A DNA stretch of 64,000 nucleotides, taken from NCBI RefSeq assembly GCF_017355855.1, contig NZ_JAFEWD010000002.1:62001-126000 (forward strand), in the 5' to 3' direction. Below the pieces are notes generated by a model, which had not been told where the DNA came from, made no database searches, and worked only from the letters and a program-made list of their open reading frames with translations. A program made the position numbers and the translations under genes. This document shows, one piece after another, positions 24,942 to 44,544 of this stretch (position 1 is the first letter of the stretch; each line of letters begins with the position of its first letter). The DNA is from Pedobacter sp. SYSU D00535. Its GTDB lineage: Bacteria; Bacteroidota; Bacteroidia; Sphingobacteriales; Sphingobacteriaceae.

Positions 24942-25085
24942 ATGAAAGCTGTTTACAACACCTACACCGAAAACTGCTTAACCTACCCTGATTCAGCAGC
25001 CATTTTCTACTACACTAGCGCCCGAACGCGAACTCCTCTTGTGTACAATTTGCAATACTACGTGATCCTGTACAAACCGAAATAG
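24942..25085 (+). CDS. Small Tyr-rich ORF, possible leader peptide
   Basis: This ATG-started ORF of 47 codons ends in TAG and lies 56 bases before the helix-turn-helix gene. Nine of the 47 residues are Tyr (for example IFYYTS and LQYYVILY). There is no signal peptide and no recognised domain. A -7-like box just upstream and the short distance to the regulator favour translation. It could be a leader peptide for the regulator, a small protein of its own, or chance. I recognise no family. Confidence 0.4.
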   Translation: MKAVYNTYTENCLTYPDSAAIFYYTSARTRTPLVYNLQYYVILYKPK

Positions 25086-25141
25086 CGAGCTATTTCCTAA
25101 GGATAAGTATTAATTGAAAAAGTTGAATTTTTTAAAAAGAT

Positions 25142-25489
25142 ATGAATACTGGAGAAATAGTGGAGCTTGTAATTCGCCGAGATAATGTTAGTATCAGCGA
25201 GCTCTCAAGAAAGCTACGAGTAAGCAGAAGGTCTATCTATAATTGGTTCAATCGACAACATTTGAGTAAGGATGTTATTTGTAAAATTGGCGATGTTTTA
25301 GGCCACGATTTTTCAGCAGAATTACCGGAGGTTTTTAACAATAACAATAGTGAACATAATGTTTCTTACCCGGATTTAGATGAAGCCGACGTTTCTGATA
25401 AACCCGACAGCGCGCAATATTGGAGAACCAAGTATATTAAGCTACTCGAAAAGCACAACGACTACCTTAGCAGAAGGTCGGTTCAATAA
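25142..25489 (+). CDS. Small helix-turn-helix regulator (first of a flanking pair)
   Basis: This 115-residue protein has an N-terminal XRE/resolvase-like helix-turn-helix (about 14-50: VSISELSRKLRVSRRSIYNW). A short linker follows, and then a C-terminal helix YWRTKYIKLLEKHNDYL (about 97-113). The same layout and many of the same residues occur in the gene at 57537-57944, at the other end of the polysaccharide locus. The C-terminal helix may mediate dimerisation or binding of a partner. It is the first gene of the locus and is followed by a terminator, so it probably forms its own transcript and may control the locus. The target is inference. Confidence 0.8.
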   Translation: MNTGEIVELVIRRDNVSISELSRKLRVSRRSIYNWFNRQHLSKDVICKIGDVLGHDFSAELPEVFNNNNSEHNVSYPDLDEADVSDKPDSAQYWRTKYIKLLEKHNDYLSRRSVQ

Positions 25490-25797: not shown

Positions 25798-26562
25798 ATG
25801 AAAAATTTATACGTTGTAACTGGCCTTTGTATCATCCTCACAAGTGCTTGTGCGCCCCGGAGAGATTTAGTTTATTTCAGCGATCTTTCCAGGAAGACCG
25901 CCACTGAGAGGAGTATCAGTAATCAATTTGAGCCCCGGATACAGAATGGTGATGTACTCACCATTACAGTAAGTACCCAAAGCGCAGAGTCTAATGTTTT
26001 ATTTGCGTCTAATACGAATGCTACCCGATACAATGCAATGGAGCGGGATGGCTACCGGGTAGATAGAAGCGGTCTCATAAATTTCCCTGTCATTGGAGCT
26101 ATGAAAGTAGAAGGCTACACACTTGAAGAGGCGCAGCAGAAGTTATCCCACGAGATTGACAAGTATGCGAAAGAACCGATTGTGAATGTGCAGTTCGCTA
26201 ACTTTAAAATTACGGTAATGGGCGAAGTTAACAGGCCCTCCAGCTTCACAGTGACAAGTGAAAGAATAAACCTTTTGGAGGCTCTGGGGATGGCTGGAGA
26301 TATGACGGTGTACGGCAAAAGAGAAAATGTGTTACTGATACGGGAGGTAGCCGGAAAGCGAACCGTCATAAGAATGAACCTGAACAAACAGGATGTACTT
26401 AACTCGCCCTATTTCTACCTGAAGCAAAATGACATCGTATACGTTGAACCGGATAAAGCAAAAGCGGTAGAATATAGTCCTAATAACCGGCTGATGCCAC
26501 TGCTGGTTGCTACCATCTCGGCTGTTGCCGTCCTTGCAACCACATTTATCGGAAGAAACTAA
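25798..26562 (+). CDS. Polysaccharide export lipoprotein, Wza/BexD family
   Basis: This 254-residue lipoprotein has Cys18 in LTSAC. It contains the Poly_export domain (about 45-130: IQNGDVLTITV, YRVDRSGLINFPVIGAMKVEGYTLEEAQQKL) and an SLBB-type segment (about 137-215: FKITVMGEVNRPSSF, NLLEALGMAGDMT). It ends with a hydrophobic helix LMPLLVATISAVAVLATTFI, as in Bacteroidota-type Wza homologues. It should form the outer-membrane channel through which the polymer leaves, coupled to the Wzc-like protein encoded 23 bases downstream. It is shorter than E. coli Wza, as is usual in this phylum. Confidence 0.92.
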   Translation: MKNLYVVTGLCIILTSACAPRRDLVYFSDLSRKTATERSISNQFEPRIQNGDVLTITVSTQSAESNVLFASNTNATRYNAMERDGYRVDRSGLINFPVIGAMKVEGYTLEEAQQKLSHEIDKYAKEPIVNVQFANFKITVMGEVNRPSSFTVTSERINLLEALGMAGDMTVYGKRENVLLIREVAGKRTVIRMNLNKQDVLNSPYFYLKQNDIVYVEPDKAKAVEYSPNNRLMPLLVATISAVAVLATTFIGRN

Positions 26563-26585: not shown

Positions 26586-28844
26586 ATGAAAAACCTGAGT
26601 GAACTAAAAAAATACCTGCAATACTGGTATGTGTTTCTGCTGACAGTAGGCTTAAGCCTGACCGCGGCGTATTTCTATCTGCAAACCACTCCGGCAAAGT
26701 ACAGGGTTAGCAGCACCTTGTTGATAGAGGATGACCCGAAAGGTGATGGCATGTTTAAAGGTACCGCTTTTAGTGATCTGGAAATGTTTAAATCGAATAA
26801 AACAGTAGAAAGCGAGATGGAAGTGTTGCGTTCCCGGGATCTCCTGAAGAAGGTGTTGCACGACCTCCCTCTTCATACCAGCTATTTTGTGAAACGCCAG
26901 TTTAAAACACTTGAGCTCTACGGAGATAACCTTCCGGTCAACATTAGCATCGATACGCTCAGTACCCCCACGTTTTCCAGAAACTTTTCTATAGAAATTC
27001 TGGACAGGTACTCGTTCGCCTGGACGGATAATGACAAAACTACGATCTACGATTTTGGAGACATGATTACCACGCCCGCTTATCGCATCACCGTTCAAAG
27101 GGGACCGGCCTTTCGGAAGGAAGTAGGAAATATCATCGCGATAAAGTTTAATAATGTAGACCGTATGGCCGAAAGTTACAGTAAGTCGAGACTGAGTATT
27201 TTGCCCATCGCTAAAGACGCAAATACAATTGTACTCAGTCTGGTTGACGCTGTGCCCGAGCGGGCTGTAGACATTCTCACCCGGCTAATTCAAACCTACA
27301 ATACGGAGAATATTTATAACAAAAGTCAGATGGCTAGAAATACGATAAAGTTTATCGACGAACGTCTTGACTATCTCAGTACTGATCTTTCCAGCGTGGA
27401 AAAGGACGTGGAGGATTATAAACAGGTAAATCAAATTGTGGATGTTAATGCTGATGCGCAGATGAACATGCAAAGTTCAGGTATTTACGAGCAGCAATTA
27501 GCCGAGTCAAGGGTACAGCTGGAAATCATACGCAGTTTGGAAACCTATCTCCGGAAAGCTGACAACAACTCAGCGCTTGTACCCAGTACCTTGGGTATTA
27601 AAGACGCAACGCTGGAAGGGCTGACAATGAAATACAACGAACTCCAATTGGAAAAACAGCGGCTCTTGCGTAGCGCCAGACCGAACAATCCCTTAATCGT
27701 AAATCTGAATGAGCAGTTGCTGAGTTTGAAGCTGAACATGCAGGAGAATCTAAAAAACGTTAAACGCGGCTTATTACATCAGGTAAATAATCTGAGTGCC
27801 AAATCTTCACAGTTTGAATCTCGTATTCGGGAAGTGCCAGCTATAGAGCGGGGGCTTCTGGAGAGGAACCGGGAACAGGGCGTAAAGCTCAGCCTATATC
27901 ACTACCTGCTGCAAAAGCGGGAGGAAACCGCCTTGTATATGAGCAGCACCATTCCAACTTCCCAGGTAATAGACCGCCCAGCCGCGGCATCAATACCGGA
28001 AAGTCCCAAAGGCGACCTGATCTATTTATGCTCCTTTCTCTTTGGACTGATACTACCGGCAGGGGTAATTTACTGTAAACATTTGCTGAATACAAAGGTG
28101 CAGGAAGCTGGCGACTTGAAATTTATTAAGGAGGCAAATGTGCTGGGCGAGCTGGCTAATAAGGGTAAGCAGGGTACGGTAGTGGTTCAGAAAGAAAGTA
28201 GAACTACGATTTCCGAGCTATTCCGGTATATCCGAAATAACCTGAGTATGATGGACCATGACGGACGTAACCAAGTATTACTAATCACCTCCAGCATGAA
28301 GGGAGAAGGTAAAACCTTCTTCAGTATCAATCTGGGTGTGACACTTTCCCTGGTGAATAAAAAGGTAGTTTTACTGGAATTCGACCTCCGCAAACCCGAC
28401 CTGCTGAAGGGCATCAATCTTAACAGCAAACAGGGTATAACTGATTATTTGCGTAAGGATTTAGTCCTTAACGAGCTTATACACCCTTCTGGATTGTCAC
28501 CCAATTTGTATGCTATAGGCTGTGGCACTTTGCCCGAAGATCCGGCAGAGCTGCTGCTAAATCCGAAGTTAAGACTGATGTTTGAACGTCTGAGACAGCA
28601 GTTCGACTACGTCATCGTAGATACATCTCCGGTAGGACAGGTAGCCGATGCCTTTAGTCTTGCCCCTTTTACCGATGCAAGCATTTACCTGGTCAGGTAT
28701 AACTTCACGAATAAAATGCAGCTGCACATTCTGGAGGATATTTATGAGAATAAGAAGTTAAAAAAACCGCTGGTGGTGTTTAACGATGCCCGCAGGAACA
28801 AAAATGCATATACCTATGGATATGGCAGTGAATACGGCTATTGA
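26586..28844 (+). CDS. Wzc-like chain-length regulator and tyrosine autokinase
   Basis: This 752-residue inner-membrane protein controls polymer length and export. TM1 lies at about 14-33 and is followed by a Wzz domain, long periplasmic coiled coils (about 235-440) and a GNVR-like segment. TM2 lies at about 479-497, and a cytoplasmic bacterial tyrosine kinase domain follows. Walker A is SSMKGEGKT with Lys576; Walker A' is VVLLEFDLRKPD (about 596-607); the later YVIVDTSP is Walker B. The tail is a Tyr cluster, AYTYGYGSEYGY, the expected autophosphorylation site. It is co-transcribed with the Wza-like gene, and a long non-coding leader follows. Confidence 0.95.
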   Translation: MKNLSELKKYLQYWYVFLLTVGLSLTAAYFYLQTTPAKYRVSSTLLIEDDPKGDGMFKGTAFSDLEMFKSNKTVESEMEVLRSRDLLKKVLHDLPLHTSYFVKRQFKTLELYGDNLPVNISIDTLSTPTFSRNFSIEILDRYSFAWTDNDKTTIYDFGDMITTPAYRITVQRGPAFRKEVGNIIAIKFNNVDRMAESYSKSRLSILPIAKDANTIVLSLVDAVPERAVDILTRLIQTYNTENIYNKSQMARNTIKFIDERLDYLSTDLSSVEKDVEDYKQVNQIVDVNADAQMNMQSSGIYEQQLAESRVQLEIIRSLETYLRKADNNSALVPSTLGIKDATLEGLTMKYNELQLEKQRLLRSARPNNPLIVNLNEQLLSLKLNMQENLKNVKRGLLHQVNNLSAKSSQFESRIREVPAIERGLLERNREQGVKLSLYHYLLQKREETALYMSSTIPTSQVIDRPAAASIPESPKGDLIYLCSFLFGLILPAGVIYCKHLLNTKVQEAGDLKFIKEANVLGELANKGKQGTVVVQKESRTTISELFRYIRNNLSMMDHDGRNQVLLITSSMKGEGKTFFSINLGVTLSLVNKKVVLLEFDLRKPDLLKGINLNSKQGITDYLRKDLVLNELIHPSGLSPNLYAIGCGTLPEDPAELLLNPKLRLMFERLRQQFDYVIVDTSPVGQVADAFSLAPFTDASIYLVRYNFTNKMQLHILEDIYENKKLKKPLVVFNDARRNKNAYTYGYGSEYGY

Positions 28845-29278
28845 TGGAAAATAAACTGTAGTAGCGATCCAAGCAATATTACTGCTATACAAATCCCTGA
28901 GCTAATGAATCCGTTGCTAAGGGGACTGAAAGATAAGGAAGCACTTCTGCTTCAGACAAACTAAAAGAATATCGGGGACGAGTCCCTGCAACTAAACGAA
29001 GGCAATTTTAAAAACAATCATGTAAGTGAAATAGCGAAGCTGTATCCGTTTCGCCTGGCTTACACAAAAAAAGCGGCGTTTGTCCCGCAACCAAACAAAA
29101 ACAATTTTAAAACGCAGTCATGTAAGTGAGATAGCGAAGCTGCGTCTTGAGTGCAGAAAGCCCAGGACTGGTACTGCAACTCACCGCAAGCACTTAAAAA
29201 AGCAATCATGTAAGTGAGATAGCGAAGCTGTGTTCGCTGCTTCCAAAACATCCAATAGCTCATCCCCCTACATCTACT
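28845..29278. other. 434-base leader between wzc and the antiterminator gene
   Basis: Apart from the three direct repeats, this stretch holds a small hairpin, ggga-cgag-tccc (about 28975-28986). It also has a possible alternative stem, tgtaag (29021-29026) with cttaca (29059-29064). No ORF on the plus strand is credible. Its length and structure fit an untranslated leader of the long glycosyltransferase operon. Confidence 0.55.
28982..29231 (+). repeat. Three direct repeats in the leader of the polysaccharide operon
   Basis: Three units of about 62 bases start at 28982, 29082 and 29171. Each begins with gtcc/gtac followed by (c)tgcaac or gcaacc. Each then has an A-rich stretch around aattttaaaa (degenerate in copy 3), and ends with a highly conserved core: tcatgtaagtga then Ratagcgaagctg (cores at 29018-29042, 29118-29142 and 29206-29230). 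The core contains GCGAAGC, a sequence known to form an unusually stable mini-hairpin in DNA. In the third copy agcgaa also pairs with ttcgct (29234-29239). The spacing is 100 and 89 bases, so this is not a CRISPR. Its place just before a NusG paralogue suggests a recruitment or pause element. Confidence 0.75.
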
Positions 29279-29800
29279 ATGAAAACAACATTTACCTCCA
29301 ATTCCCTTAAAAGCTGGCTTGTAGTATATACCCGGCCGCGGTGGGAGAAAAAAGTAGATCAGCTGCTGCAATTGCAGGAGATTGAATCTTTTTGTCCGAC
29401 CCGAAAAGTGGTCAACCAATGGGCCGACAGGAAAAAAACCGTCGAGGTGCCTCTTTTTAGTTCCTATGTATTCGTGAATATCAACATGAAAGACGAGTTC
29501 AAAGTGCGACAAACCCTTGGTGTAATGAATTTTATTTATTTCATGGGAAAGCCCGCATCCGTAAGGGATTCAGAAATCGTGCATATTAAGAACTACCTGC
29601 TAAGTCATTCCGATTTAGAAGTGATGGATATTAAGAGCCTCTCTTCCGGCGATCGGGTAAAAATCAGGAACGGCGCTTTTTTCAATCAGGAAGGACGGGT
29701 GCTGGAGATTCAGGGAAAAAAAGTGCTGTTGGTGCTTGATAAGCTAGACTGTGCCCTGGTAACTAAAGTAGAAGCTTCGAACCTTGCCTTAATCAGTTAA
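29279..29800 (+). CDS. NusG-like transcription antiterminator, UpxY family
   Basis: This 173-residue NusG paralogue has an NGN domain (about 11-105: [29 protein letters not shown]) and a C-terminal KOW domain (about 122-170: [21 protein letters not shown]). In Bacteroides, UpxY proteins bind RNA polymerase early in a capsule operon and prevent premature termination in its long leader; RfaH and LoaP do the same elsewhere. Being the first gene after a 434-base leader with three direct repeats, it most likely acts on its own operon (29279 onward). It is followed after 11 bases by the UDP-sugar dehydrogenase. Confidence 0.93.
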
Positions 29801-29811
29801 AATCCCTCTAT

Positions 29812-31113
29812 ATGAATAGTCAACTAGTTGAAAATGTAAAACTTGCCGTTATCGGAATGGGATATGTCGGCCTTCCTCTCGCTGTTGAATTTGCCAAAAA
29901 GTATAAAGTGTTCGGATTTGACATTAATCGGGACAGGGTTGAGGATTTGAAGAACGGCCATGACCATACCAGAGAGATCAGCCGGGAAAACCTGCTGAAG
30001 GTATTAACCCAAGACTGCACTAAGCCAACAGGGTTGTATTGCACCGATGAAATTGATAAGATTCGGAGTTGCAATATTTACATTATCACTGTTCCAACAC
30101 CGGTTGATAAGAATAAGCGCCCCGATCTGACTCCGCTTTACAAAGCGAGTGCATTGGTTGGAAAGGTGCTTAAAGAGGGCGACATCGTTGTATATGAATC
30201 GACCGTTTACCCCGGCGTGACGGAAGAGGAGTGCGTGCCAGTACTTGAAAAAGCCTCAGGACTGCGATTCAATATTGACTTTTTCGCGGGGTACTCGCCC
30301 GAGCGGATCAACCCCGGAGATAAGGAGCATACCGTCGCGAATATTTTGAAAATAACTTCAGGTTCGACGCAAAAAGTGGCGGATGTGGTTGACAGGTTAT
30401 ATGGCTCGGTAATTATTGCCGGAACGCATAAAGCGACTTCCATAAAAGTGGCAGAAGCCGCCAAAGTAATTGAAAATGCTCAACGCGATATCAACATTGC
30501 TTTTGTAAATGAATTGGCAATGATTTTTAACAGACTGGGTATAGACACGCAGGAAGTTTTAAAAGCGGCAGGTACTAAGTGGAACTTTCTGAAGTTTCAG
30601 CCCGGACTGGTGGGCGGTCATTGTATCGGGGTAGATCCGTACTACCTTGCTCAAAAAGCACAGGAGGCAGGTTATCATCCTGAAATTATTCTTGCAGGGC
30701 GCAGAGTAAACGACGGTATGGGGGCCTATGTTGCTGATCAATTAGTTAAGCGAATGCTTTCCAACGGGATTAATATCATTAGTAGCGATGTGCTGGTGCT
30801 TGGCTTCACCTTCAAAGAAAACTGTCCCGACGTACGTAATACTAAAGTGATTGATATTGTCAAAAAGCTGGAAGAGTACAAAATCAATGTGTGTATTCAT
30901 GATCCCTGGGCTGATCCGATACAGGTAAAACATGAATACGGAGTAATCTGCCAGAATGGAGAGTCCAAACGAAGAAAGTACGATGCTGTCCTGCTTGCCG
31001 TGGCACATTCAGATTTTATGGATCTCGATATAAGCAGCCTGTTGAAAGACAATGCCGTAGTTTACGATATCAAATCGATGCTTCCTCAGGCAATGGTACA
31101 TGCCCGCCTATAA
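29812..31113 (+). CDS. UDP-sugar 6-dehydrogenase (WbpO/TviB type)
   Basis: This is a 433-residue NAD-dependent nucleotide-sugar dehydrogenase. The N-terminal Rossmann motif is [12 protein letters not shown] (about 13-24); YESTVYPG and SPERINPGD follow. Catalytic Cys271 lies in [12 protein letters not shown], and the C-terminal UDP-binding domain contains [15 protein letters not shown]. Residue patterns are closer to the WbpO/TviB/WbpA group, which oxidises UDP-GlcNAc or UDP-GalNAc to the uronic acid, than to UDP-glucose dehydrogenase, though this is not certain. It supplies an acidic sugar for the polymer and fits with the amidotransferases and the uronate epimerase later in the locus. Confidence 0.92.
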
Positions 31114-31149
31114 AAATAATCCGGCGCCGTTGCAGCACTGGAATTTAAG

Positions 31150-32595
31150 ATGATGAGCTTAAAAGAAAAAACGGTAAGTGGACTGCTTTGGTCGTTTACC
31201 GAACAGGCAGGAGGGAAGTTCCTGAGCTTTGGCATTAACATCTTCCTGGCCCGAATCCTCGTTCCCGAAGAGTTTGGATTGATCGCAATGCTTTCGGTTT
31301 TTGTCGCGATCGGTACCTCCTTGCTTGATTGCGGACTGAACTCCTCCCTGATCAGATCCAGTGAGGCCGATGAAAAAGACTACTCAACTGTTTTTTTCTT
31401 CAACCTCGTCGGCAGCGTCATCATTTACTTTTTGATGTTCTTACTGGCTCCTTATATAGCCAGTTTTTACAAGCAGGAAGTTTTGGTGAATATCATCCGC
31501 GTATACGGGATCTCGTTTGTAATTAATGCTTTCTTCAGTATCCAGAGCACGCGTCTCAGCAAGGAGATGGATTTTAAAACACAGACGGCTATCAATATTC
31601 CCGCTGTACTAGGAGGCGGTATTGTCGGCATTCTGCTAGCAAAGGGGGGCTACGGCGTATGGAGCCTGGTTTGGATGAGCCTTGTTAACTCTCTGCTGTC
31701 TACCATCATGCACTGGAAATATTCTAACTGGAAACCCCAATTGATTTTTGATATGACCAGTTTCCGGAATCACTTCTTTTTCGGTTACAAAATGACCATC
31801 TCCAGTTTGATTGACACCTTATACCGGAATATTTATGTCCTGATAATCGGTAAATACTACTCGGCAGCCCAGCTCGGCTTTTATTCCAGGGCCGAAGCAA
31901 TAAGTCAGCTACCCATATCTAATGTGGCTGCAGCAATTAATAAGGTCACTTACCCAATGTTTGCCACTATTTCCGGGGACGACGAGAAGCTGAAAGCAGT
32001 TTACAGGAAGTTGTTGAAGCAAGTTATTTTTTGGAACGCCCCGGTACTGATTCTTCTCGCGGTAATCGCCGAACCGCTGTTCACCTTTTTGATCACCGAG
32101 AAGTGGCTGCCGGCAGTCCCCTATTTTCAGATTCTGTGTATCGCGGGAATAATGTATCCCTTACATTCATACAACCTCAATATTTTGAAGGTAAAAGGTA
32201 GAAGCGACCTTTTTCTGAAGCTGGAAGTTGCGAAAAAAGTAGTAAGCCTTATAGGTATCGCCTCCGTACTCCCTCTGGGTATCTATGGCTTACTATACTT
32301 TCAGCTTGGCTTTAGTTTCGCTGCCTATTTCATCAATTCTTTTTACAGCGGCAAAATGATCAACTATCCCGTAAGGGAACAAATAGCAGACATCTTGCCC
32401 ATGCTGCTCCTTGCTGTCCTGATCGGCGGCACTTGTTACGTTGTCGATCAGTACTTTTTTCATCTCCTTCAGCTGATCGATCTGGGTCGGATAAGCTTGC
32501 TGGGACTGCTGTACTTTCTTATCTATCTCAGTTGCAGCTACCTGATAAAACTAAGCGCATTTACTGATTTTAAACATCTAATCCTACGAAAATGA
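31150..32595 (+). CDS. Wzx-type polysaccharide flippase
   Basis: This is a 481-residue polytopic membrane protein of the MATE/MVF-like polysaccharide transporter family. The start (EKTVSGLLWSFTEQAGGKFLSFGINIFLARILVPEEFGLIAM, here only described) is typical of the WzxC/PST branch, and about 12 to 14 hydrophobic helices follow. It should flip the lipid-linked repeat unit to the periplasmic side for polymerisation. The stop codon overlaps the ATG of the next gene by four bases, showing translational coupling. Confidence 0.92.
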   Translation: MMSLKEKTVSGLLWSFTEQAGGKFLSFGINIFLARILVPEEFGLIAMLSVFVAIGTSLLDCGLNSSLIRSSEADEKDYSTVFFFNLVGSVIIYFLMFLLAPYIASFYKQEVLVNIIRVYGISFVINAFFSIQSTRLSKEMDFKTQTAINIPAVLGGGIVGILLAKGGYGVWSLVWMSLVNSLLSTIMHWKYSNWKPQLIFDMTSFRNHFFFGYKMTISSLIDTLYRNIYVLIIGKYYSAAQLGFYSRAEAISQLPISNVAAAINKVTYPMFATISGDDEKLKAVYRKLLKQVIFWNAPVLILLAVIAEPLFTFLITEKWLPAVPYFQILCIAGIMYPLHSYNLNILKVKGRSDLFLKLEVAKKVVSLIGIASVLPLGIYGLLYFQLGFSFAAYFINSFYSGKMINYPVREQIADILPMLLLAVLIGGTCYVVDQYFFHLLQLIDLGRISLLGLLYFLIYLSCSYLIKLSAFTDFKHLILRK

Positions 32596-33743
32596 TACCA
32601 GTAACAAAGCCTTTTCTTCCCAGCTTCCGGGAATACGAAGAGTATTTAAGTAGCATTTGGGAGCGCCAGTGGTTAACTAACAACGGTCCTTTGTTGAACG
32701 AATTTGAGTTGAAGCTGAAAGAATACCTGGATGTGAAGCATATGCTGTATGTTACCAACGGCACTGTTGCACTCCAGCTAGCCATAAGGGCCCTGGATTT
32801 GAAAGGAGAGATCATTACAACGCCTTTCTCCTACGTAGCAACTACCAGCAGCATTGTATGGGAAGGCTGTAAGCCGGTTTTTGTAGATATAGAGGAAGAC
32901 ACCTTTAATATTGATCCTACAAAGATCGAGGCAGCAATCACTCCACGTACCAGTGCCATCCTGGCTACGCATGTGTTCGGTAACCCTTGTGATATTGACG
33001 CAATTCAGGCAATAGCGGATAAGTACAACTTAAAGGTGATTTATGATGGTGCACACTGCTTCGGCACAAAATACAAGAACAGGTCTGTTTTTGAGTACGG
33101 CGACATCTGCACCACCAGCTTTCATGCAACGAAACTTTTCCATACCATAGAAGGCGGGGCCGTGTTTACACAATCGCCCGAGCTTTTGAAGAAACTGGTG
33201 TTCATGCGCAACTTCGGGCATAACGGTCCCGAGGACTTTGTTGAAGTAGGCATAAATGCGAAAAACTGCGAATTTCGAGCTGCTATGGGGCTTTGTAACT
33301 TAGCTCATGCCGACGAGGTGCTGGAAAAGCGAAAAACGCTTTCTATGCATTATTTCGAAAAGCTTAAAAATCTTAAAGCAGCATTTCCCCGACTCAATGC
33401 CAGTAAAGACTACAATTATGCCTACTTTCCGGTTCTCTTCGACTCTGAAGAAATGTTGCAGAAAACCATCCGCGAATTGTCACTAGAGAAGGTTTACTGT
33501 CGGCGCTATTTTTACCCTGCCTTGTCGACCTTGCCCTATGTTACTGCCCAGGAAATGCCAGTCTGCGATTCTGTCGTCAAACGAATTGTTTGTCTGCCAC
33601 TGTACCACACCCTGACTTTTTCAGACCTGGATATGATATGCCGGGTAATTCTTCGCGTGCAAAATTACGGTATGACAACCGAAGCAGAAGAAGCAGCAGC
33701 TGCACTAGAAAACCAGATCAAATCAATTTTAACCGTCGCCTAA
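32592..33743 (+). CDS. DegT/DnrJ/EryC1-family sugar aminotransferase
   Basis: This 383-residue PLP enzyme transfers an amino group to a keto nucleotide sugar. The family pattern is clear: TNGTVALQLAIRAL, TTPFSYVATTSS, HVFGNPCDI, YDGAHCFG (Asp binding the pyridine nitrogen) and FHATKLFHTIEGG with PLP-binding Lys181. It resembles VioA/FdtB-like enzymes, but the product cannot be told. The expected substrate could be the 4-keto sugar made by the CapD/PglF-like dehydratase at 55501, or a 3-keto sugar. It is translationally coupled to the Wzx gene and lies 19 bases before a GT2 gene. Confidence 0.92.
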   Translation: MIPVTKPFLPSFREYEEYLSSIWERQWLTNNGPLLNEFELKLKEYLDVKHMLYVTNGTVALQLAIRALDLKGEIITTPFSYVATTSSIVWEGCKPVFVDIEEDTFNIDPTKIEAAITPRTSAILATHVFGNPCDIDAIQAIADKYNLKVIYDGAHCFGTKYKNRSVFEYGDICTTSFHATKLFHTIEGGAVFTQSPELLKKLVFMRNFGHNGPEDFVEVGINAKNCEFRAAMGLCNLAHADEVLEKRKTLSMHYFEKLKNLKAAFPRLNASKDYNYAYFPVLFDSEEMLQKTIRELSLEKVYCRRYFYPALSTLPYVTAQEMPVCDSVVKRIVCLPLYHTLTFSDLDMICRVILRVQNYGMTTEAEEAAAALENQIKSILTVA

Positions 33744-33762
33744 AATCAATTTTCCCAGATCT

Positions 33763-34629
33763 ATGACTAACACAAATTCACCTGAAATACTGGTCAGCGT
33801 TTGCTGTATCACTTACAATCATGAGAATTTTATAAGGGATGCAATGGAAGGCTTCCTTATGCAACGAACCAATTTCAAGTACGAAGTCATCATCGGAGAA
33901 GATTGTTCTACTGACAATACCCGGAAAATCGTTCAGGAATATTGCGATAAGTATCCCGAAATGGTTCACCTGGTTTATTCAGATAAAAATGTAGGCGGTC
34001 ATCGCAATATCGTGCGGGTGCTCGACCAGGCAAAGGGGAAGTACATTGCTTTTTGCGATGGAGACGACTTTTGGACCAGTCCCGACAAACTGCAAAAGCA
34101 GGTGGACTTTCTGGAGAATAACCCTGATTACGTTATCTGCTGTCACTATACGCGTGAAATTGACTTTTCGGGCAACCTGCTGTATGTGAATGAAAACCCT
34201 GTAAGTTTAAAATACGAATACGGCGACCTTGTCATTAATAAACAGGCTGAAACATGTACCGCTACCATGGTTGTGCGCGGCCGTGAGATGTTGAAAGATC
34301 TCTATAAAAAGCATTGGTTTTTGAATTGTCATGCAGTGGATAAGTTCATGAAGCTATTTGCCACTTCCACTACCGGAAAAAAGATCTATGTGTTGCCCGA
34401 GGTAATGAGTTCCTACAGAAAACATCCCGGTGGAGTATGGAGCATGGTGCCGCAGGAAGTTTTACGACAAAAGCAACTGAATGATTTCAATCTCATTATC
34501 AATCATTTCGAGCATAATCTGCAGCAAAAGGTATCCCTGTTGATCTTCTATATCCGGCGATATTTCCTGTTCCAGCTTCGTAAGTATACGATCACCCATG
34601 TGTTTAGTACCATACGGGCAATCTTATAG
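33763..34629 (+). CDS. Family 2 glycosyltransferase
   Basis: This 288-residue GT-A glycosyltransferase contains VSVCCITYNHENFI (about 10-23), GEDCSTDNT, NVGGHRNIVRVL and the metal-binding FCDGDDFW (about 100-107). The C-terminal part is helical with an aromatic-rich end (RRYFLFQLRKYT) and may touch the membrane. It should add one sugar of the repeat unit on the cytoplasmic side. Donor and acceptor are unknown. Confidence 0.9.
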   Translation: MTNTNSPEILVSVCCITYNHENFIRDAMEGFLMQRTNFKYEVIIGEDCSTDNTRKIVQEYCDKYPEMVHLVYSDKNVGGHRNIVRVLDQAKGKYIAFCDGDDFWTSPDKLQKQVDFLENNPDYVICCHYTREIDFSGNLLYVNENPVSLKYEYGDLVINKQAETCTATMVVRGREMLKDLYKKHWFLNCHAVDKFMKLFATSTTGKKIYVLPEVMSSYRKHPGGVWSMVPQEVLRQKQLNDFNLIINHFEHNLQQKVSLLIFYIRRYFLFQLRKYTITHVFSTIRAIL

Positions 34630-34690
34630 ATCATTCTTCAAGAAAGATCAGTCTTCTTTCTTCCATTTTTCTGACGATAAGTGAATTAGT

Positions 34691-35791
34691 ATGAAGCCAA
34701 AGCTGTTTTTTGTAATTAATACCTTGCAGGGTGGTGGAGCCGAGCGGGTAGTCACAACCCTGGCTAATCACTTCAACAGAAAAGGTTATCGGGTGTTCAT
34801 CGTTTGCCTTAATTACGCTCCGGCTTCCTACATTCCGGATGCGGGGGTAGAAGTGCTGTTTCTGGTTAGGCGGGATAAGTCTCACCATATCGTCAACCGT
34901 CTCCTATATGCTTTCCTTACGTTCTTTAGACTATTACAACTCCTTAAAAAGGAGAAGCCTACTTGCGTCGTATCGTTTATGACGTCTGTAAACCTCTGGA
35001 CTGGTCTTACCTGTTCTTTACTCAAGATCCCATTCATGGTTTCAGAAAGAACAACGCCGGATGATACCATTCATAAGCTTAACTACTTTTTGAAGCATGT
35101 CTCCTTCCTGGTCTACCGTCAGTCAAAGGCGGTGGTGTTACCCTCAGAGGGGATGATAAACTGCTTCAAAAAGAACAAATCATTCAGCACGCTGGAGAAT
35201 TTCAGGATCATCCGAAATCCGGTGATGACTTTCAATTCAGCTTCCTCTAACCTGGTTTACCCAAGGAAGTTCATACTGGCGGTAGGTCGCCTGGATCCGA
35301 TTAAGGGATTTGATCTGCTGATTGAAGCTTTCGCCAAGCTGAAAGGTCTGGATATCGATCTGCTGATTTCAGGAGAAGGAACAGAGCGAGACTTTCTTTG
35401 TCGCCTAATCGAGCGCTTCGACTTGGCTGATAAAGTCAAACTGATCGGCTTTAAGGAGAATCTGCAGGACTACTATCAGCAGGCAGAGCTTTTTGTGTTG
35501 TCATCTCGAAATGAAGGATATCCCAACGCGTTGATTGAAGCCATGAGCCTGGGATGCCCCTGTATCGCCACCGATTGCGAATTTGGTCCTTCTGAAATTA
35601 TTGAAGACGGGCAGAACGGGATATTGATCCCAACAAATAACCCGGACGCTATCGCGGACGCTGTTCTTAATGTACTTACCAACCCTATACTCAAAGAGAG
35701 GATCTCCAGAAGGGCCCGGCTTATCACCCGGACTAACTCGATAGAACGTATTTCTTCCAAATGGGAGAATTTAATACTTAGCCATGTTTAA
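34691..35791 (+). CDS. Family 4 glycosyltransferase
   Basis: This 366-residue GT-B enzyme contains NTLQGGGAERVVTTLANHF near the N-terminus. The C-terminal nucleotide-sugar site includes AVGRLDPIKGFDLLIEA and EGYPNALIEAMSLGCP (the family's E-x7-E region). It is a retaining transferase for assembly of the repeat unit; the sugar is unknown. Its end overlaps the start of the polymerase gene by eight bases. Confidence 0.92.
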   Translation: MKPKLFFVINTLQGGGAERVVTTLANHFNRKGYRVFIVCLNYAPASYIPDAGVEVLFLVRRDKSHHIVNRLLYAFLTFFRLLQLLKKEKPTCVVSFMTSVNLWTGLTCSLLKIPFMVSERTTPDDTIHKLNYFLKHVSFLVYRQSKAVVLPSEGMINCFKKNKSFSTLENFRIIRNPVMTFNSASSNLVYPRKFILAVGRLDPIKGFDLLIEAFAKLKGLDIDLLISGEGTERDFLCRLIERFDLADKVKLIGFKENLQDYYQQAELFVLSSRNEGYPNALIEAMSLGCPCIATDCEFGPSEIIEDGQNGILIPTNNPDAIADAVLNVLTNPILKERISRRARLITRTNSIERISSKWENLILSHV

Positions 35792-36992
35792 GAGAGCCTG
35801 TATATTCCTGCTGTTATTTTTGTACTTGTACACGCTGACTTTTAATGTCTTCATGACGGGAGTATTCCGAGTTCCGGCACCTTTTCTAGCGGTTCCATTG
35901 GTGTTCTTTTTCTACGATGAACCGCTGAACGGATTCAAATACACGAAGGAATTAGTGGTACTTTTCCTTGCGGCGCTATTTTATTATCTGATAGGTCAGG
36001 CAAATATCATCACTTTCATCTCCGTGATGATTACGTTTACCTGCTGTGCACTCTTTTTTAACTATTTCATCGGAAATAATTTGAAGAGGCTTCAACTGTC
36101 AGTTTTCCTGTTTTTCTTTTTCCTAGTTTGTTCAGCGCTGGTAATGCTTCTAAATCATCATTATAGAATAGAGGATATTAGATCTATGCTTGTGGGTGAG
36201 ACCGTGCAGCAGTCGCCATCCGGCATATCCACCTACATTTTTAGTTTCGGCTACCAATTATCCGCCCTTGTTGCGTTTCTTGCCGTTTTTATAACGGCTG
36301 CCAGAAAGGGTGTTATCCTCAGTATTTTAGTGATCGCGATATGCGGTGTACTGATCTTTTATGGCCTGCAACGATCTGTGTTGATGACTTTCTCCATCTG
36401 TCTGTTATTATTTCTTACCATATGGTACCGTTTCCGCGCAGTGCTGCTCTTCAGCTTTATTTTCATCATTGCGGTCTCTTTTAAATCCTCTGTGGAAGGA
36501 CTGTCTTCAGGAGCCCAGCAAAATATTTTAACCAAAAATGAACGCAGTAAAAACGAAGGGGAAAACCGGGAAGCACTGGTTACGGAAAATCTAAAAGTTA
36601 TTGCTGATCACCCCTTTGGTCTCATTCTTTCCGGGATGGATTGGAAAGATGTAGTGAAACATAATGTTTTTTATAAGAGCGGAACTGGCGTGATCACCTC
36701 GCACAACGCCTATCTGATGTTTCTCACGTACCTGGGTATAATACCGGGACTCCTATTCCTCTATTTAATTTACGCTAGGGTCGTTAGGATTACCTGGTCT
36801 GTCCTGAAGCACGCGAAAGACAAGAAAAACACCTTGTTGATTGCACTCTGTATGTCGTTTTTAGGAATTTCCTTGAACGCGTGTTTTCATAACGAATGGC
36901 TTCTCGCTGCCAGCGGTCCAACACTTTTTTTATATTTCTGCATACTCCAGCTTTCCCGCATAAAAGCAAACCAGGCATCGATAGATAACTGA
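35784..36992 (+). CDS. Wzy-like O-antigen/capsule polymerase
   Basis: This 402-residue integral membrane protein has about ten to twelve hydrophobic helices and a larger hydrophilic loop (about 240-310). The loop contains NERSKNEGENREALVTENLKV and then TSHNAYLMFLTYLG, the typical SHN motif of the O-antigen ligase/polymerase superfamily (Wzy_C-like). It should link repeat units in the periplasm. Sequence conservation of Wzy proteins is low, so the assignment rests on topology, the SHN motif and the position among transferases. Confidence 0.85.
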   Translation: MFKRACIFLLLFLYLYTLTFNVFMTGVFRVPAPFLAVPLVFFFYDEPLNGFKYTKELVVLFLAALFYYLIGQANIITFISVMITFTCCALFFNYFIGNNLKRLQLSVFLFFFFLVCSALVMLLNHHYRIEDIRSMLVGETVQQSPSGISTYIFSFGYQLSALVAFLAVFITAARKGVILSILVIAICGVLIFYGLQRSVLMTFSICLLLFLTIWYRFRAVLLFSFIFIIAVSFKSSVEGLSSGAQQNILTKNERSKNEGENREALVTENLKVIADHPFGLILSGMDWKDVVKHNVFYKSGTGVITSHNAYLMFLTYLGIIPGLLFLYLIYARVVRITWSVLKHAKDKKNTLLIALCMSFLGISLNACFHNEWLLAASGPTLFLYFCILQLSRIKANQASIDN

Positions 36993-37041
36993 TCTTAGTG
37001 ATCGTGCCTGAAATTATCTACCATCATCTAAAACTATACCT

Positions 37042-38295
37042 ATGAATATCCCATTTTCACCCCCTTTTATTGATCAGGCGGTAATTGATCAGGTTGTGGA
37101 TACCCTAAAATCCAATTGGATTACTACGGGTCCGAAAGTGAAAGCTTTAGAGCAGGAAATAGTTAAGCTGACAGGTACGCAAGCAGCAGTTTGCGTTAAT
37201 TCCTGGACTTCAGGTGCCATTTTAACGCTGAAATGGTTTGGGATTAAGGAGGGTGACGAGGTGATTTTGCCCGCCTATACGTATTCGGCAACTGCCTTAA
37301 GCGTTCTTCACTGCGGTGCTACGCCAGTGATGGTTGATATAAAAGATGATTTTACGATTGACCCTGAAGAAGTTAGAAAGGCAATTACCACCAGAACAAA
37401 AGCTATTCTTGCCGTAGATATTGCCGGTTGGCCCTGCGATTACAATGCCTTGGCTGAAATAGTGAACGATCCACTAATCAAAGAAGAGTTTGTCCCTGCA
37501 TCAAATACCCAGCGGATGCTTGGAAGGATTTTGCTGATTGCTGATGCTGCTCATTCTATCGGAGCAAAATACGATGAGAGGGCCGCGGCATTAAAATCGG
37601 ACATCGCCATCTTCTCTTTTCATGCGGTAAAAAATATAACCACTGCCGAGGGTGGATGTATTTGTCTGAACCTTCCAGAACCGTTCAATACAGCAGCAGA
37701 GTATAGTTTCTTGAAAGTATTTTCCTTGAACGGTCAGAATAAGGATGCTTTTGCCAAATCCATGGGAACAGGGTGGCGATACGATATTCTTTTTCAGGGA
37801 TACAAAATGAACATGCCGGATTTATGTGCGGCGGTCGGTCTTGCTCAACTATTGCAGTATGGCGACAAATTGTTGCCATCGAGAAAGGCCATCGCGTTGA
37901 AATACCTAAATGCTTTCATTAATTGTCCCTGGGCCATATTGCCGACTTTGCAGGATGAAAGGCGGGAATCCTCATATCACCTGTTTCCACTTCGGATAAA
38001 AGGCATCACCGAGGCGAAACGAGATCATATAATTGATTACCTGGCGAAAGCAGGAATTAACGTAAACGTTCATTTTATTCCGATGCCCATGTTTACGCTT
38101 TTCAAGAGTTTGGGGTATGATATCAAGAACTATCCTAATGCCTATAAGCAGTATGCCGCGGAAATCTCGCTTCCGATTTATCCTCAGCTTACGGATGCGG
38201 AGATCGACTTCATTGTGGAGTCGATGATTGAGGCCGTTCAGTTAGAAGTGGAAATGGAGAAATCCGTTCAGATGGCAGCTCAAATTCCGGCGTGA
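37042..38295 (+). CDS. DegT/DnrJ/EryC1-family sugar aminotransferase (second copy)
   Basis: This is a 417-residue PLP aminotransferase of the same fold as the gene at 32592 but clearly a different subgroup. It contains WITTGPKVKALEQEI, NSWTSGAILTLKWFG, PAYTYSATALSVLHCGA, ADAAHSIGAKYD and FSFHAVKNITTAEGG with PLP Lys197. It resembles the ArnB/WbpE/PglE group that aminates UDP-4-keto or 3-keto sugars. It overlaps the initiating sugar transferase gene by four bases. That fits a PglE-PglC type pair in which the aminated sugar is the first sugar loaded on the lipid carrier. Confidence 0.92.
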   Translation: MNIPFSPPFIDQAVIDQVVDTLKSNWITTGPKVKALEQEIVKLTGTQAAVCVNSWTSGAILTLKWFGIKEGDEVILPAYTYSATALSVLHCGATPVMVDIKDDFTIDPEEVRKAITTRTKAILAVDIAGWPCDYNALAEIVNDPLIKEEFVPASNTQRMLGRILLIADAAHSIGAKYDERAAALKSDIAIFSFHAVKNITTAEGGCICLNLPEPFNTAAEYSFLKVFSLNGQNKDAFAKSMGTGWRYDILFQGYKMNMPDLCAAVGLAQLLQYGDKLLPSRKAIALKYLNAFINCPWAILPTLQDERRESSYHLFPLRIKGITEAKRDHIIDYLAKAGINVNVHFIPMPMFTLFKSLGYDIKNYPNAYKQYAAEISLPIYPQLTDAEIDFIVESMIEAVQLEVEMEKSVQMAAQIPA

Positions 38296-38885
38296 TGAAA
38301 AGATCCTTTGATCTGTTCTTTTCGGTACTGGGGCTTTTGCTCTTTCTGCCGTTGTTCATCGTATTCTCGCTGATGATAGTGATAGATTCTCCCGGCGGGG
38401 TGTTTTATAAACAAACTCGCGTGGGAAGAAACCGGCTGAACTTTAAGCTTTATAAGTTCCGAACGATGCATGTGACTTCCTCACAAACCTTGCAATTAAC
38501 GGTGGGAGACCGAGATCCGCGCATCACCAAAGTGGGCTACTGGCTTCGGAAATATAAGTTGGACGAGCTGCCGCAACTCCTTAATATCCTGAAAGGCGAG
38601 ATGAGCCTGGTAGGGCCGCGGCCGGAAGTTGAAAAGTATGTAAACATGTATACGGCGGCACAACAACGGGTTTTATCGGTTAAACCGGGAATTACGGATT
38701 GGGCCTCGATCAAGTTCTGCCAGGAAAGTGAGCTTTTAGCCAGTGTCGCTGATCCTGAAAATTTCTATATCACGGAAATTATCCCTTCAAAAATTGCCTA
38801 TAGCCTCGCGTATATTGATGATCACGACATCTGGGTGGATATGAAAATTTTGATGCTCACGGTCATCCGGATCTTCCGGAACTGA
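38292..38885 (+). CDS. Initiating phosphoglycosyl transferase (PglC/WcaJ C-terminal type)
   Basis: This 197-residue monotopic phosphoglycosyl transferase transfers a sugar-phosphate to undecaprenyl phosphate. It has an N-terminal re-entrant hydrophobic helix (about 5-28), then FYKQTRVGRN, FKLYKFRTM, DPRITKVGYWLRKYKLDELPQLLNILKGEMSLVGPRPEV (given as markers only) and PGITDWASIKF. It lacks the large N-terminal membrane part of WcaJ/WbaP and so belongs to the small PglC-like class. Coupling to the upstream aminotransferase suggests an amino sugar such as a bacillosamine-like residue as first sugar. Confidence 0.93.
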   Translation: MMKRSFDLFFSVLGLLLFLPLFIVFSLMIVIDSPGGVFYKQTRVGRNRLNFKLYKFRTMHVTSSQTLQLTVGDRDPRITKVGYWLRKYKLDELPQLLNILKGEMSLVGPRPEVEKYVNMYTAAQQRVLSVKPGITDWASIKFCQESELLASVADPENFYITEIIPSKIAYSLAYIDDHDIWVDMKILMLTVIRIFRN

Positions 38886-38916
38886 GATTGCCAACGCTGA
38901 ATTTAAACATCTTGAA

Positions 38917-39600
38917 ATGATTGTATCAGAAAGTGAGATCAAAAAAGAGATCATCCGCTGGGATGTAATCAATTGGTCTAAAGCTCTCGACTTTTGGAGA
39001 GAAAACGTGGAGCTGAAGGGTAAGAAATACCAGTGCCTGGAGCTTGGAGCTAGTTTTGGAGGGCTTTCCTTATGGTTGGCTTTGGGTGAAAACTATGTGG
39101 TTTGTACGGATGTAGACGGGCCTGAGCCTGATGCCCGGCTCATACACGCCAAATACAACTGTCAGCAAAACATCACCTATCATGCGATGGACGCCACAAA
39201 TATTCCTTATGAAAGCTTTTTCGACATCGTCACTTTCAAGTCTATCCTCGGTGGAATCAGCGCAAACAGGAATGACAATAAAAAGAAGGTTGCCGACGAG
39301 ATTTATAAAGCCTTGAAGCCCGGAGGAAAGCTGCTGTTCGCAGAGAATCTGGAAGGCTGCTTTCTTCATAAAGCGTTGCGTCGCAAGTTTGGAACAAAAG
39401 GCTGGAATTACTTGCAGATAGATGAGCTGAACGAGGTCTTCTCATCCTACAAAAGCATCAAGTACAAAAGCATTGGTTTCCTTGGTTGTATGGGAAGAAA
39501 TGAAAAACAACGATCTGTTTTCGGGAAAGTAGATACGGTGCTTGATAACATCTTACCCCAACGATCCAAATATATTCTGGTTGGAGTGGCAGTTAAATAA
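38917..39600 (+). CDS. SAM-dependent methyltransferase
   Basis: This 227-residue class I methyltransferase has the SAM-binding motif CLELGASFGGLSLWLAL (about 42-58), the acidic VCTDVDGP and a KPGGKLLFAENLEG strand typical of the Methyltransf_11/25 group. Within this locus it probably methylates a sugar of the polymer or of a precursor. There is no membrane segment. The acceptor is unknown. Confidence 0.85.
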   Translation: MIVSESEIKKEIIRWDVINWSKALDFWRENVELKGKKYQCLELGASFGGLSLWLALGENYVVCTDVDGPEPDARLIHAKYNCQQNITYHAMDATNIPYESFFDIVTFKSILGGISANRNDNKKKVADEIYKALKPGGKLLFAENLEGCFLHKALRRKFGTKGWNYLQIDELNEVFSSYKSIKYKSIGFLGCMGRNEKQRSVFGKVDTVLDNILPQRSKYILVGVAVK

Positions 39601-39611
39601 TTGATCTGAAC

Positions 39612-40397
39612 ATGTTGTTTTCTGTAGTGATTCCTACTTATAACCGCGCTTTGAAAGTGAAGCGGGCTATTGATAGCGTACTGAATCAGGCTGAAGATCT
39701 GTCGCTTGTCGAAATCATCGTTGTAGATGACGGCTCAACTGATCATACCGTCCGATTTCTGCAGCCCTATATAAAAGCCGGGAAGATTAAGTACGTTAAG
39801 CATTCGGTAAACCAGGGAGTTGCGGTCGCAAAAAATACTGGAATATTAACTGCACAGAACGAGTATGTAATGCTGCTGGATTCAGATGATTTGCTGGACA
39901 AAGGCGGAATGGCACACCTGATCCGCTTGGTAGAGGACAAGCGGTACGACATCGTTTTTTCCGGTTCGAAGGTGTTGTCGAACGGAGCTTTGATGTTCAA
40001 CTCATCCTTTAGGGGTGAAAAAAATTATACAGACCTGCTCAAAAATAGCATTGGTGAATATTTACCGATCTGCCGCACCAGTGTTTTAAAGCAGTATTTG
40101 CTCCGCAATCTTAGAGGATATGAAAGTGTGACCTGGCTAACTATCGCCCGTGCCGGGTATAAAATTTTTTACGATCCTCATCCAGTGCGCTTGTATGACG
40201 ACGAGGGGGAAGACCGCCTGTCCAATCGCCTCGGCCTGATCAGGAATTCGGGGGACATGAAGGACGGTTATTCCATTTATCTCAGAGAGTTTGGGAAAGA
40301 CTTGTTACGAGCCAATCCGAAAGCCTACCTCACCGTAAAGGCGAAACTGTTTTGCTATTCTTTTATCCATCGCTTGAAGCAGAGTCGGGCTAACTAA
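39612..40397 (+). CDS. Family 2 glycosyltransferase
   Basis: This is a 261-residue GT-A transferase with FSVVIPTYNRALKVKRAIDSVL at the start (given as a marker), VVDDGSTDHT and MLLDSDDLLDKGG with the DXD-type metal site (about 93-95). It is soluble throughout. It adds one sugar of the repeat unit, and its specificity cannot be read from sequence. Confidence 0.9.
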   Translation: MLFSVVIPTYNRALKVKRAIDSVLNQAEDLSLVEIIVVDDGSTDHTVRFLQPYIKAGKIKYVKHSVNQGVAVAKNTGILTAQNEYVMLLDSDDLLDKGGMAHLIRLVEDKRYDIVFSGSKVLSNGALMFNSSFRGEKNYTDLLKNSIGEYLPICRTSVLKQYLLRNLRGYESVTWLTIARAGYKIFYDPHPVRLYDDEGEDRLSNRLGLIRNSGDMKDGYSIYLREFGKDLLRANPKAYLTVKAKLFCYSFIHRLKQSRAN

Positions 40398-40435
40398 GCC
40401 CGTGCTGTTGGTCAAATGATGTAAACCTTCCGCAG

Positions 40436-41491
40436 ATGAAGAAAAAGGTATATTTCATTCTAAGTTCGCTAAGGGCGGGCGGGTCTGAGCGGGTTTTCTG
40501 GCTGCTTTCGCAGTATTTCGACAAGTCGCAATATGATGTCAGCCTCATTCTCCTGGACTCCCGTGATCCGTTCTTTTCACCACAGCTCGAAGGCATCAGA
40601 ACTGTACATCTTAATACCATCCGGGTTTCCCGGTCATTTTTTAAACTATTCCGGCTGATAAAAAAGGAGAAACCGCATGCTGTGTTCACGACTGGCGGTC
40701 ACATCAACGCGCTTCTTTCATTCATCTCACTTTTTGTAAAAATTCCCTTCTTAATCGGCAGGGAAGCTAACGTACTGGAACTGATGGTAACATTTGAAGG
40801 CTCAAAAGGAAAATTACTAGACATGCTAATTGGGACAGCCTATAAACGAATTGATGTTGGCGTGTGCCAGTCGGACGAAGTGAAAAGGTCGCTAAGCAAC
40901 AGGTATCGTATCCCGAACGATAAATTAGTGGTAATTCCAAATCCTGTGATTCCTGTCCAGATCATCAAAGCCAGCAAAGCTGGGCGACAAAAACGCCTGA
41001 TCGTAGTAGCCCGCCTTGCCCGGGAAAAAGGGCTTCTTCGTTTGCTTGAGATCATGAAGGAGCTTCCCGAGAATTATTCACTAAACATTGTGGGAGAGGG
41101 ACCGTTGCGGGAGGAGCTCGAAACGAGGATCGGGGCATTGGGATTGAGACATCGGGTAGAATTGTGTGGACAGGTAGCTCGTATCACTGATTTTATTGCC
41201 GGTCATGACTTGATGCTGCTCACTTCTTTTACAGAGGGATTTCCCAATGCTGTGGTAGAAGCTCTTTCTGTAGGAGTTCCGGTCGTTTCATTTAGGGTAA
41301 GCGGCATATCTGCCATCATCACTAATGGCTTTAACGGCTACATCATCGAGCAAAATGACCTGGATGACTTTCGGGTGAAAACCATAATAGCTGGCAACCA
41401 ATGTTGGGACAACCGGGCCATCAGGGAAGATGTTATCGCCAGGTTCGGGATTGATAAGGTGGTGGCGAAGTATGAAAGCCTGATCGCTTAA
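40436..41491 (+). CDS. Family 4 glycosyltransferase
   Basis: This 351-residue GT-B enzyme contains LSSLRAGGSERVFWLLSQYF, GREANVLE, VVARLAREKGLLRLLE and EGFPNAVVEALSVGVPVVS. The last is the donor-binding region of GT4. It resembles the enzyme at 34691 but is a distinct protein. Its role is one step of repeat-unit assembly. Confidence 0.92.
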   Translation: MKKKVYFILSSLRAGGSERVFWLLSQYFDKSQYDVSLILLDSRDPFFSPQLEGIRTVHLNTIRVSRSFFKLFRLIKKEKPHAVFTTGGHINALLSFISLFVKIPFLIGREANVLELMVTFEGSKGKLLDMLIGTAYKRIDVGVCQSDEVKRSLSNRYRIPNDKLVVIPNPVIPVQIIKASKAGRQKRLIVVARLAREKGLLRLLEIMKELPENYSLNIVGEGPLREELETRIGALGLRHRVELCGQVARITDFIAGHDLMLLTSFTEGFPNAVVEALSVGVPVVSFRVSGISAIITNGFNGYIIEQNDLDDFRVKTIIAGNQCWDNRAIREDVIARFGIDKVVAKYESLIA

Positions 41492-41543
41492 GCCCTACGT
41501 TTCCTTCTGTTAAATAATCACTGCTCATTTTTATCTCATCTAT

Positions 41544-43382: not shown

Positions 43383-43409
43383 CTATCTGCTCATCTGATC
43401 TTATCTGCT

Positions 43410-44504: not shown

Positions 44505-44544
44505 AGGTCGAGCTCTGACTATACAACCTTTTTAACCAACCAAT

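Follow-up and report, generated by a model that had tools for sequence, protein, structure and literature searches.

A bipartite tandem element in the leader of a Pedobacter upxY gene, a probable loading site for the NusG paralogue encoded downstream

The way in which NusG paralogues find their target operons has been worked out for RfaH and, in part, for the UpxY proteins of Bacteroides (Chatzidaki-Livanis 2009; Saba 2024, doi 10.1038/s41467-024-55215-9). The latter reportedly act by antitermination of capsule operons and are said to use both non-template DNA contacts and nascent RNA hairpins; hallmarks of these UpxY/UpxZ loci are a upxZ gene beside upxY and an invertible promoter with inverted repeats. 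According to the account of Saba 2024 given in PMC12691694, Bacteroides UpxY contacts upstream duplex DNA. At a consensus pause, the non-template strand forms a hairpin that recruits RfaH; in ops, this hairpin consists of a C3:G8 pair with the loop G4-A7 (PMC5995543). LoaP of Bacillus is recruited by a leader signal as well, the RNA hairpin of the dfn leader.

Here we describe a short repeated element before a upxY gene in a 64,000-nt stretch of Pedobacter sp. SYSU D00535 DNA (the window). As with RfaH and ops in the JUMPstart leaders of E. coli, a NusG paralogue is found together with a short element in transcribed polysaccharide leaders, action in trans is possible and a small non-template-strand hairpin is proposed. 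The element differs from ops in most conserved positions, with only TRGCG shared by eye (the pentamer TAGCG is common to both). Its hairpin, RGC-GAA-GCY, occupies another position than the C3:G8 hairpin, it has an additional upstream half that is long and conserved, two to four copies can stand in tandem, and the partner is UpxY rather than RfaH. The protein family and the position in a polysaccharide-operon leader are those of the Bacteroides UpxY systems. What apparently differs is that no upxZ directly follows upxY in the window, that no flanking inverted repeats of note were seen in 28300-30000, and that arrangements in trans and downstream of upxY occur. From LoaP the system is set apart by the paralogue family and by the DNA reading that we favor for its signal. 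Recruitment elements for NusG paralogues are known as a kind; to our knowledge, the sequence, the bipartite build, the tandem arrays, the use in trans and the second clade are new. We found no description of this element in the literature searched, and an Rfam covariance-model search with the repeats gave zero matches.

The repeat array and upxY gene of the window

An earlier note on this DNA had claimed three direct repeats directly before a UpxY-like gene, and three repeats are present, in register and at spacings of 100 and 88 nt (Table 1). Its description of near-identical 25-base cores is also borne out: the core, TCATGTAAGTGARATAGCGAAGCTG, starts at 29018, 29118 and 29206 on the + strand, varies at a single base (A/G) and has a chance expectation of 0.00 (100 shuffles). 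The repeat unit of about 62 bases given in the note was, however, overstated, as the conserved unit comprises about 26 nt, TCATGTAAGTGARATAGCGAAGCTGT. Among relatives with several copies, neighboring copies are 0.89 identical in the core versus 0.37 in the flanks (17 pairs), which argues that tandem copies are maintained by selection and do not stem from recent duplication. The three copies of the window are the only strong ones in their own genome (4.9 Mb, 20 contigs), where a covariance model assigns them E values of 3e-8 to 2e-6 versus 0.015 for the next best hit. Two further genome matches, at 3 mismatches, are apparently coding and have no upxY nearby.

The gene that follows the repeats is a true member of the UpxY family of NusG paralogues. 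Its product scores 136.2 bits against NF033644 (curated cut-off 100) and stays below the cut-offs for RfaH (TIGR01955, 77 bits versus 144.5) and for LoaP-type proteins (NF033641). An AF2 model (mean pLDDT 79) matches NusG and RfaH structures, including RfaH in ops-paused complexes. The gene sits within or beside a polysaccharide operon, and the proposal that it opens a long operon is inexact. A long same-strand run of glycan genes does follow, in which the gene directly after upxY resembles a nucleotide-sugar dehydrogenase and the whole comprises, as read from the sequence by eye, a sugar-nucleotide dehydrogenase, a flippase, aminotransferases, glycosyltransferases and two asnB-like genes. However, wza-like and wzc-like genes precede upxY on the same strand. 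Upstream of the first copies, 7 sites of the Bacteroidota promoter type (TAnnTTTG) were found versus 15.9 expected from a simple shuffle; the -33 box is absent from all of them, so that a promoter is not placeable, and a scan for E. coli-type promoters found nothing. Because no promoter was recognized upstream of the element, transcription of the window's own copies is something we can only infer.

Table 1. Positions of the repeats, their parts and the surrounding genes in the window
Feature	Position	Strand	Remarks
Direct repeat, copy 1	28986-29048		63 nt
Direct repeat, copy 2	29086-29148		63 nt; 67% identical to copy 1
Direct repeat, copy 3	29174-29236		63 nt; 83% identical to copy 1
Element, copy 1	29018-29043	+	TCATG-TAAGTGAAATAGCGAAGCTGT; model R1 46.9 bits, E 1.7e-9
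Element, copy 2	29118-29143	+	TCATG-TAAGTGAGATAGCGAAGCTGC; model R1 39.6 bits
Element, copy 3	29206-29231	+	TCATG-TAAGTGAGATAGCGAAGCTGT; model R1 43.7 bits
Upstream arm, copy 1	29018-29029	+	TCAT-GTAA-GTGA, weak inverted repeat
Upstream arm, copy 2	29118-29129	+	as copy 1
Upstream arm, copy 3	29206-29217	+	as copy 1
GNA mini-hairpin, copy 1	29033-29041	+	AGC-GAA-GCT
GNA mini-hairpin, copy 2	29133-29141	+	as copy 1
GNA mini-hairpin, copy 3	29221-29229	+	as copy 1
Small HTH protein gene	25142-25489		start of the cluster
wza-like gene	25798-26562	+	cluster just upstream of the array; Pfam Poly_export, SLBB, GNVR, AAA_31 (jointly with the wzc-like gene)
wzc-like gene	26586-28844	+	just upstream of the array; Pfam domains as given for the wza-like gene (jointly)
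upxY	29279-29800	+	UpxY-family NusG paralogue (NGN and KOW), proposed partner of the element; NF033644; Pfam NusG, KOW
Downstream polysaccharide cluster	29812-46383	+	proposed antitermination target; ORFs, functions read by eye

Distribution of the element among UpxY loci

The earlier note proposed to look for the core upstream of upxY-like genes in relatives, and it is indeed found there. In 45 of 47 upxY loci, collected by protein search alone with the motif ignored and mostly from Pedobacter, Mucilaginibacter and Sphingobacterium, the element lies on the sense strand upstream of upxY in one to three copies, although this and all other counts are inflated by kinship among the sequences. In the remaining two loci (L082, L083) it stands on the other strand and heads a divergent gene. 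The closest relative of the window, Desertivirga xinjiangensis (L040), shows 65% identity, and the two other genomes sampled from the genus have two copies each. The tandem arrangement, for which the note knew no precedent, is recurrent, with two or three copies in 16 of the 47 leaders (28 with one, 15 with two, 1 with three and 3 with none by this count). The highest number met is four, at spacings of 60-84 nt before the upxY of locus L027 (1293-1503, reverse strand), the first of which has the sole broken outer stem pair (A-C).

Wide scatter of the repeat, unlinked to NusG paralogues, would have spoken against a role in loading, and the genomes of the family display the opposite pattern. Scanning 301 of them with up to 2 mismatches gave 66 matches in 46 genomes (about 3 for a reversed-pattern control). 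Sorted by hand, 61 of the 66 are intergenic, in sense orientation and at polysaccharide or glycosyltransferase loci; the other 5 lie inside unrelated ORFs and were set aside as chance. Of the intergenic matches, 47 precede upxY, 11 belong to operons whose neighbor is a divergent upxY and 3 have no upxY within 8 kb. These last three head wza or glycosyltransferase operons, and their genomes encode a clade UpxY 16-31 kb away, itself without the element. Mucilaginibacter has the element at the head of wza-wzc operons, with upxY divergent or 16-31 kb distant. Such arrangements indicate that the element marks the target operon and that UpxY can act in trans. The orientation is always into the operon; a general pattern applied to the surroundings of 70 upxY genes of the phylum gave 10 forward and 0 reverse occurrences. 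In Chitinophagales the element lies anywhere from a few to a few tens of bases away from the start codon, and with such proximity in several species it must be transcribed.

Two clusters have a pair of co-directional elements about 7 kb apart (L092, at 13655 and 6398; L094, at 14925 and 8018; all on the - strand), the first heading two very large genes and the second wza-wzc, suggesting re-loading or two operons. Additionally, in two related genomes a more distant upxY is preceded, at about 580 nt, by a conserved AACGGCGAAGCCGT hairpin (L184, near 989; L188, near 916).

In a tree of 132 UpxY proteins, all carriers of an upstream or divergent element fall into one clade (68 rows, support 96/92). 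The element accompanies 66 of these 68 members, and the two exceptions (L085, L167) have GCGGAGY variants; within 450 nt upstream of upxY, it was found at none of the 64 rows outside the clade. A divergent match outside the clade (L162) was taken as chance. The idea that the element is confined to this one clade was nevertheless rejected, since a scan downstream of upxY revealed a variant in a second clade as well as in two further families. In this second Sphingobacteriaceae clade, the sister variant TGTGACTKAnnnGGCGAAGCTGTG stands just downstream of upxY, before asnB-like or glycosyltransferase genes, and about 35-40 nt before many asnB genes. It was found in 32 of 101 genomes, representing 11 of 25 genera, and the control gave 0 matches. 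One genome (G022) has both types, a clade member with the element upstream and another UpxY with the sister variant downstream. At loci L132 and L148, from other families, related elements lie downstream of upxY. Outside these groups, most of the sampled Bacteroidota UpxYs are without such an element.

The L148 element (1403-1438, - strand, between upxY and the next gene) has an identical upstream half, ATGTAAGTGA, with the hairpin GGC-ATT-GCC, a preserved stem under a different loop, in place of GGC-GAA-GCC. At L232 and L233, where upxY is absent within 1.5 kb, an element of the second-clade type heads a glycosyltransferase-like gene; these are candidates for further trans targets.

Element anatomy and its proposed reading by UpxY

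With the T of TAAGTGA as position 0, the 88 copies before upxY show little or no variation at positions 2, 5, 9, 11-13 and 15-17, and 95% of them have T at position 20, where copy 2 of the window has C. The downstream half contains the stem RGC-GAA-GCY (10-12 with 16-18), which is paired in 99.3% of cells across 46 distinct sequences. Its outer pair is G-T in 20, A-T in 13, G-C in 12 and broken in 1; stem covariation comes from this pair alone, with many G-T, and the other two pairs never vary. GNA loops closed by two G-C pairs follow the rule for ultra-stable DNA mini-hairpins, of which GCGAAGC melts at about 78 C (PMC4686876), and the loops of the element (126 GAA, 3 GGA, 1 ATT) fit this rule. 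The upstream arm, TCAY..GTGA, has variants that include CCAC..GTGG and TCGC..GCGA and is paired in 72.8% of cells. Its left and right halves are coupled (0 of 500 shuffles of the halves as good), and 5 sequences show double changes from U-A to C-G. We discarded an extended hairpin, GATATRGC-GAA-GCYRTATC, seen in Pedobacter copies, as its pairs outside the inner three show hardly any coupling (30-31 of 500 shuffles did equally well), and a downstream RNA hairpin (GCGAA..TTCGC) present in copies 1 and 3 and not evident among the relatives' copies listed.

Strand specificity, the transcription that closeness to the start codon makes necessary in several species and the partner protein together point to a loading site on elongating polymerase as the best explanation of the element, which is strand-specific and placed in the leader of its target operon as ops-like loading elements are. 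We therefore consider it likely that the three repeats are cis-acting loading elements for the UpxY of the gene that follows them. While transcribing the leader, RNA polymerase would pause at the element, and UpxY would recognize the paused complex, bind the polymerase and remain on it, carrying transcription through the long polysaccharide operon. Most likely, RGCGAAGCY would be recognized as a small hairpin that the exposed non-template DNA strand forms, and TCATGTAAGTGA would be recognized as duplex DNA upstream, act behind the pause as a weak hairpin of the nascent RNA, or both. With several copies per leader, there may be repeated opportunities for the same scarce protein to load. Conservation suggests a pause register with the RNA 3' end at T20, two bases after RGCGAAGCY, and the hairpin in the bubble; TCATGTAAGTGAnn would then lie in the upstream duplex, and the weak RNA hairpin would trail the 3' end by about 14 nt. 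The match to the elemental-pause consensus (G-10 Y-1 G+1) is only loose. Binding by UpxY, pausing of the polymerase and additive action of the copies are what we infer from these sequences.

The conserved stem fits DNA or RNA alike, and sequence cannot separate the two kinds of hairpin. A nascent-RNA signal, in which two small leader RNA hairpins bind UpxY or a partner while the DNA strand plays no part, would account for the G-U tolerated at the outer stem pair, for the coupling in the upstream arm and for the favorable folding of some copies (for example, GAUAUAGCGAAGCUGUAUC at -7.3 kcal/mol, z -5.7). We nonetheless regard it as rather unlikely, since a short stem with an A-U outer pair is predicted to be unstable as RNA (0 kcal/mol), the extended stem hardly beats shuffles, the loop obeys a DNA rule and, in the account of Bacteroides UpxY cited above, DNA contacts are reported. 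It is improbable that the element is instead a duplex-DNA site through which a classical transcription factor controls polysaccharide promoters. The small HTH protein near upxY would be the candidate factor, as its gene adjoins upxY in several loci and is present in the window, and TCAC..GTGA is a weak inverted repeat. Against this, the element keeps strictly to a single orientation, in some species lies inside the transcript, a few to some tens of bases from start codons, and follows the UpxY clade in sequence, and its best-conserved part is the asymmetrically placed GCGAAGC.

A leader position and silence in Rfam are equally what one would expect of a new attenuator or other leader RNA structure that is independent of UpxY and merely co-inherited with polysaccharide operons. 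This is quite improbable, as no terminator-like structure was found on the sense strand, the element and the UpxY clade stay in the same genome even in trans arrangements, and the element is absent from most other UpxY clades sampled. Tandem copies could also suggest a mobile or structural repeat without regulatory role. The probability of this is negligible, and the distribution effectively refutes it: only three strong copies exist in the genome, the core is conserved where the flanks are not, and the element is kept at orthologous and paralogous operons across genera.

Beyond the loading of UpxY in this leader, we tentatively raise the prospect, somewhat less likely than not, of a second class of loading elements for NusG paralogues, of a build unlike that of ops. 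It would be a bipartite 26-nt module that joins an upstream duplex or pause-hairpin half to an ultra-stable GNA DNA mini-hairpin half, used in tandem and in trans by at least two Bacteroidota UpxY clades, with copy number tuning conversion to the processive state. With a short conserved element that has natural variants, natural copy-number differences and cognate clades, the specificity of UpxY can be put directly to the test. Should the DNA mini-hairpin reading hold, nature would here be employing a structure familiar so far mainly from nucleic-acid chemistry.

Neighboring HTH genes

Small HTH proteins (114-136 aa) are encoded in the window, at L089 (9222-9632) and at L092 (14595-14939). Those of the window and of the Mucilaginibacter loci have a common N-terminal motif, and in Mucilaginibacter the gene is directly downstream of upxY; the protein is a possible conserved partner. 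About 45 nt before the HTH gene of the window is a palindrome, GAAATAGC-GA-GCTATTTC (25078-25098), which matches the element model weakly (12.6 bits) without the GAA loop and the upstream half.
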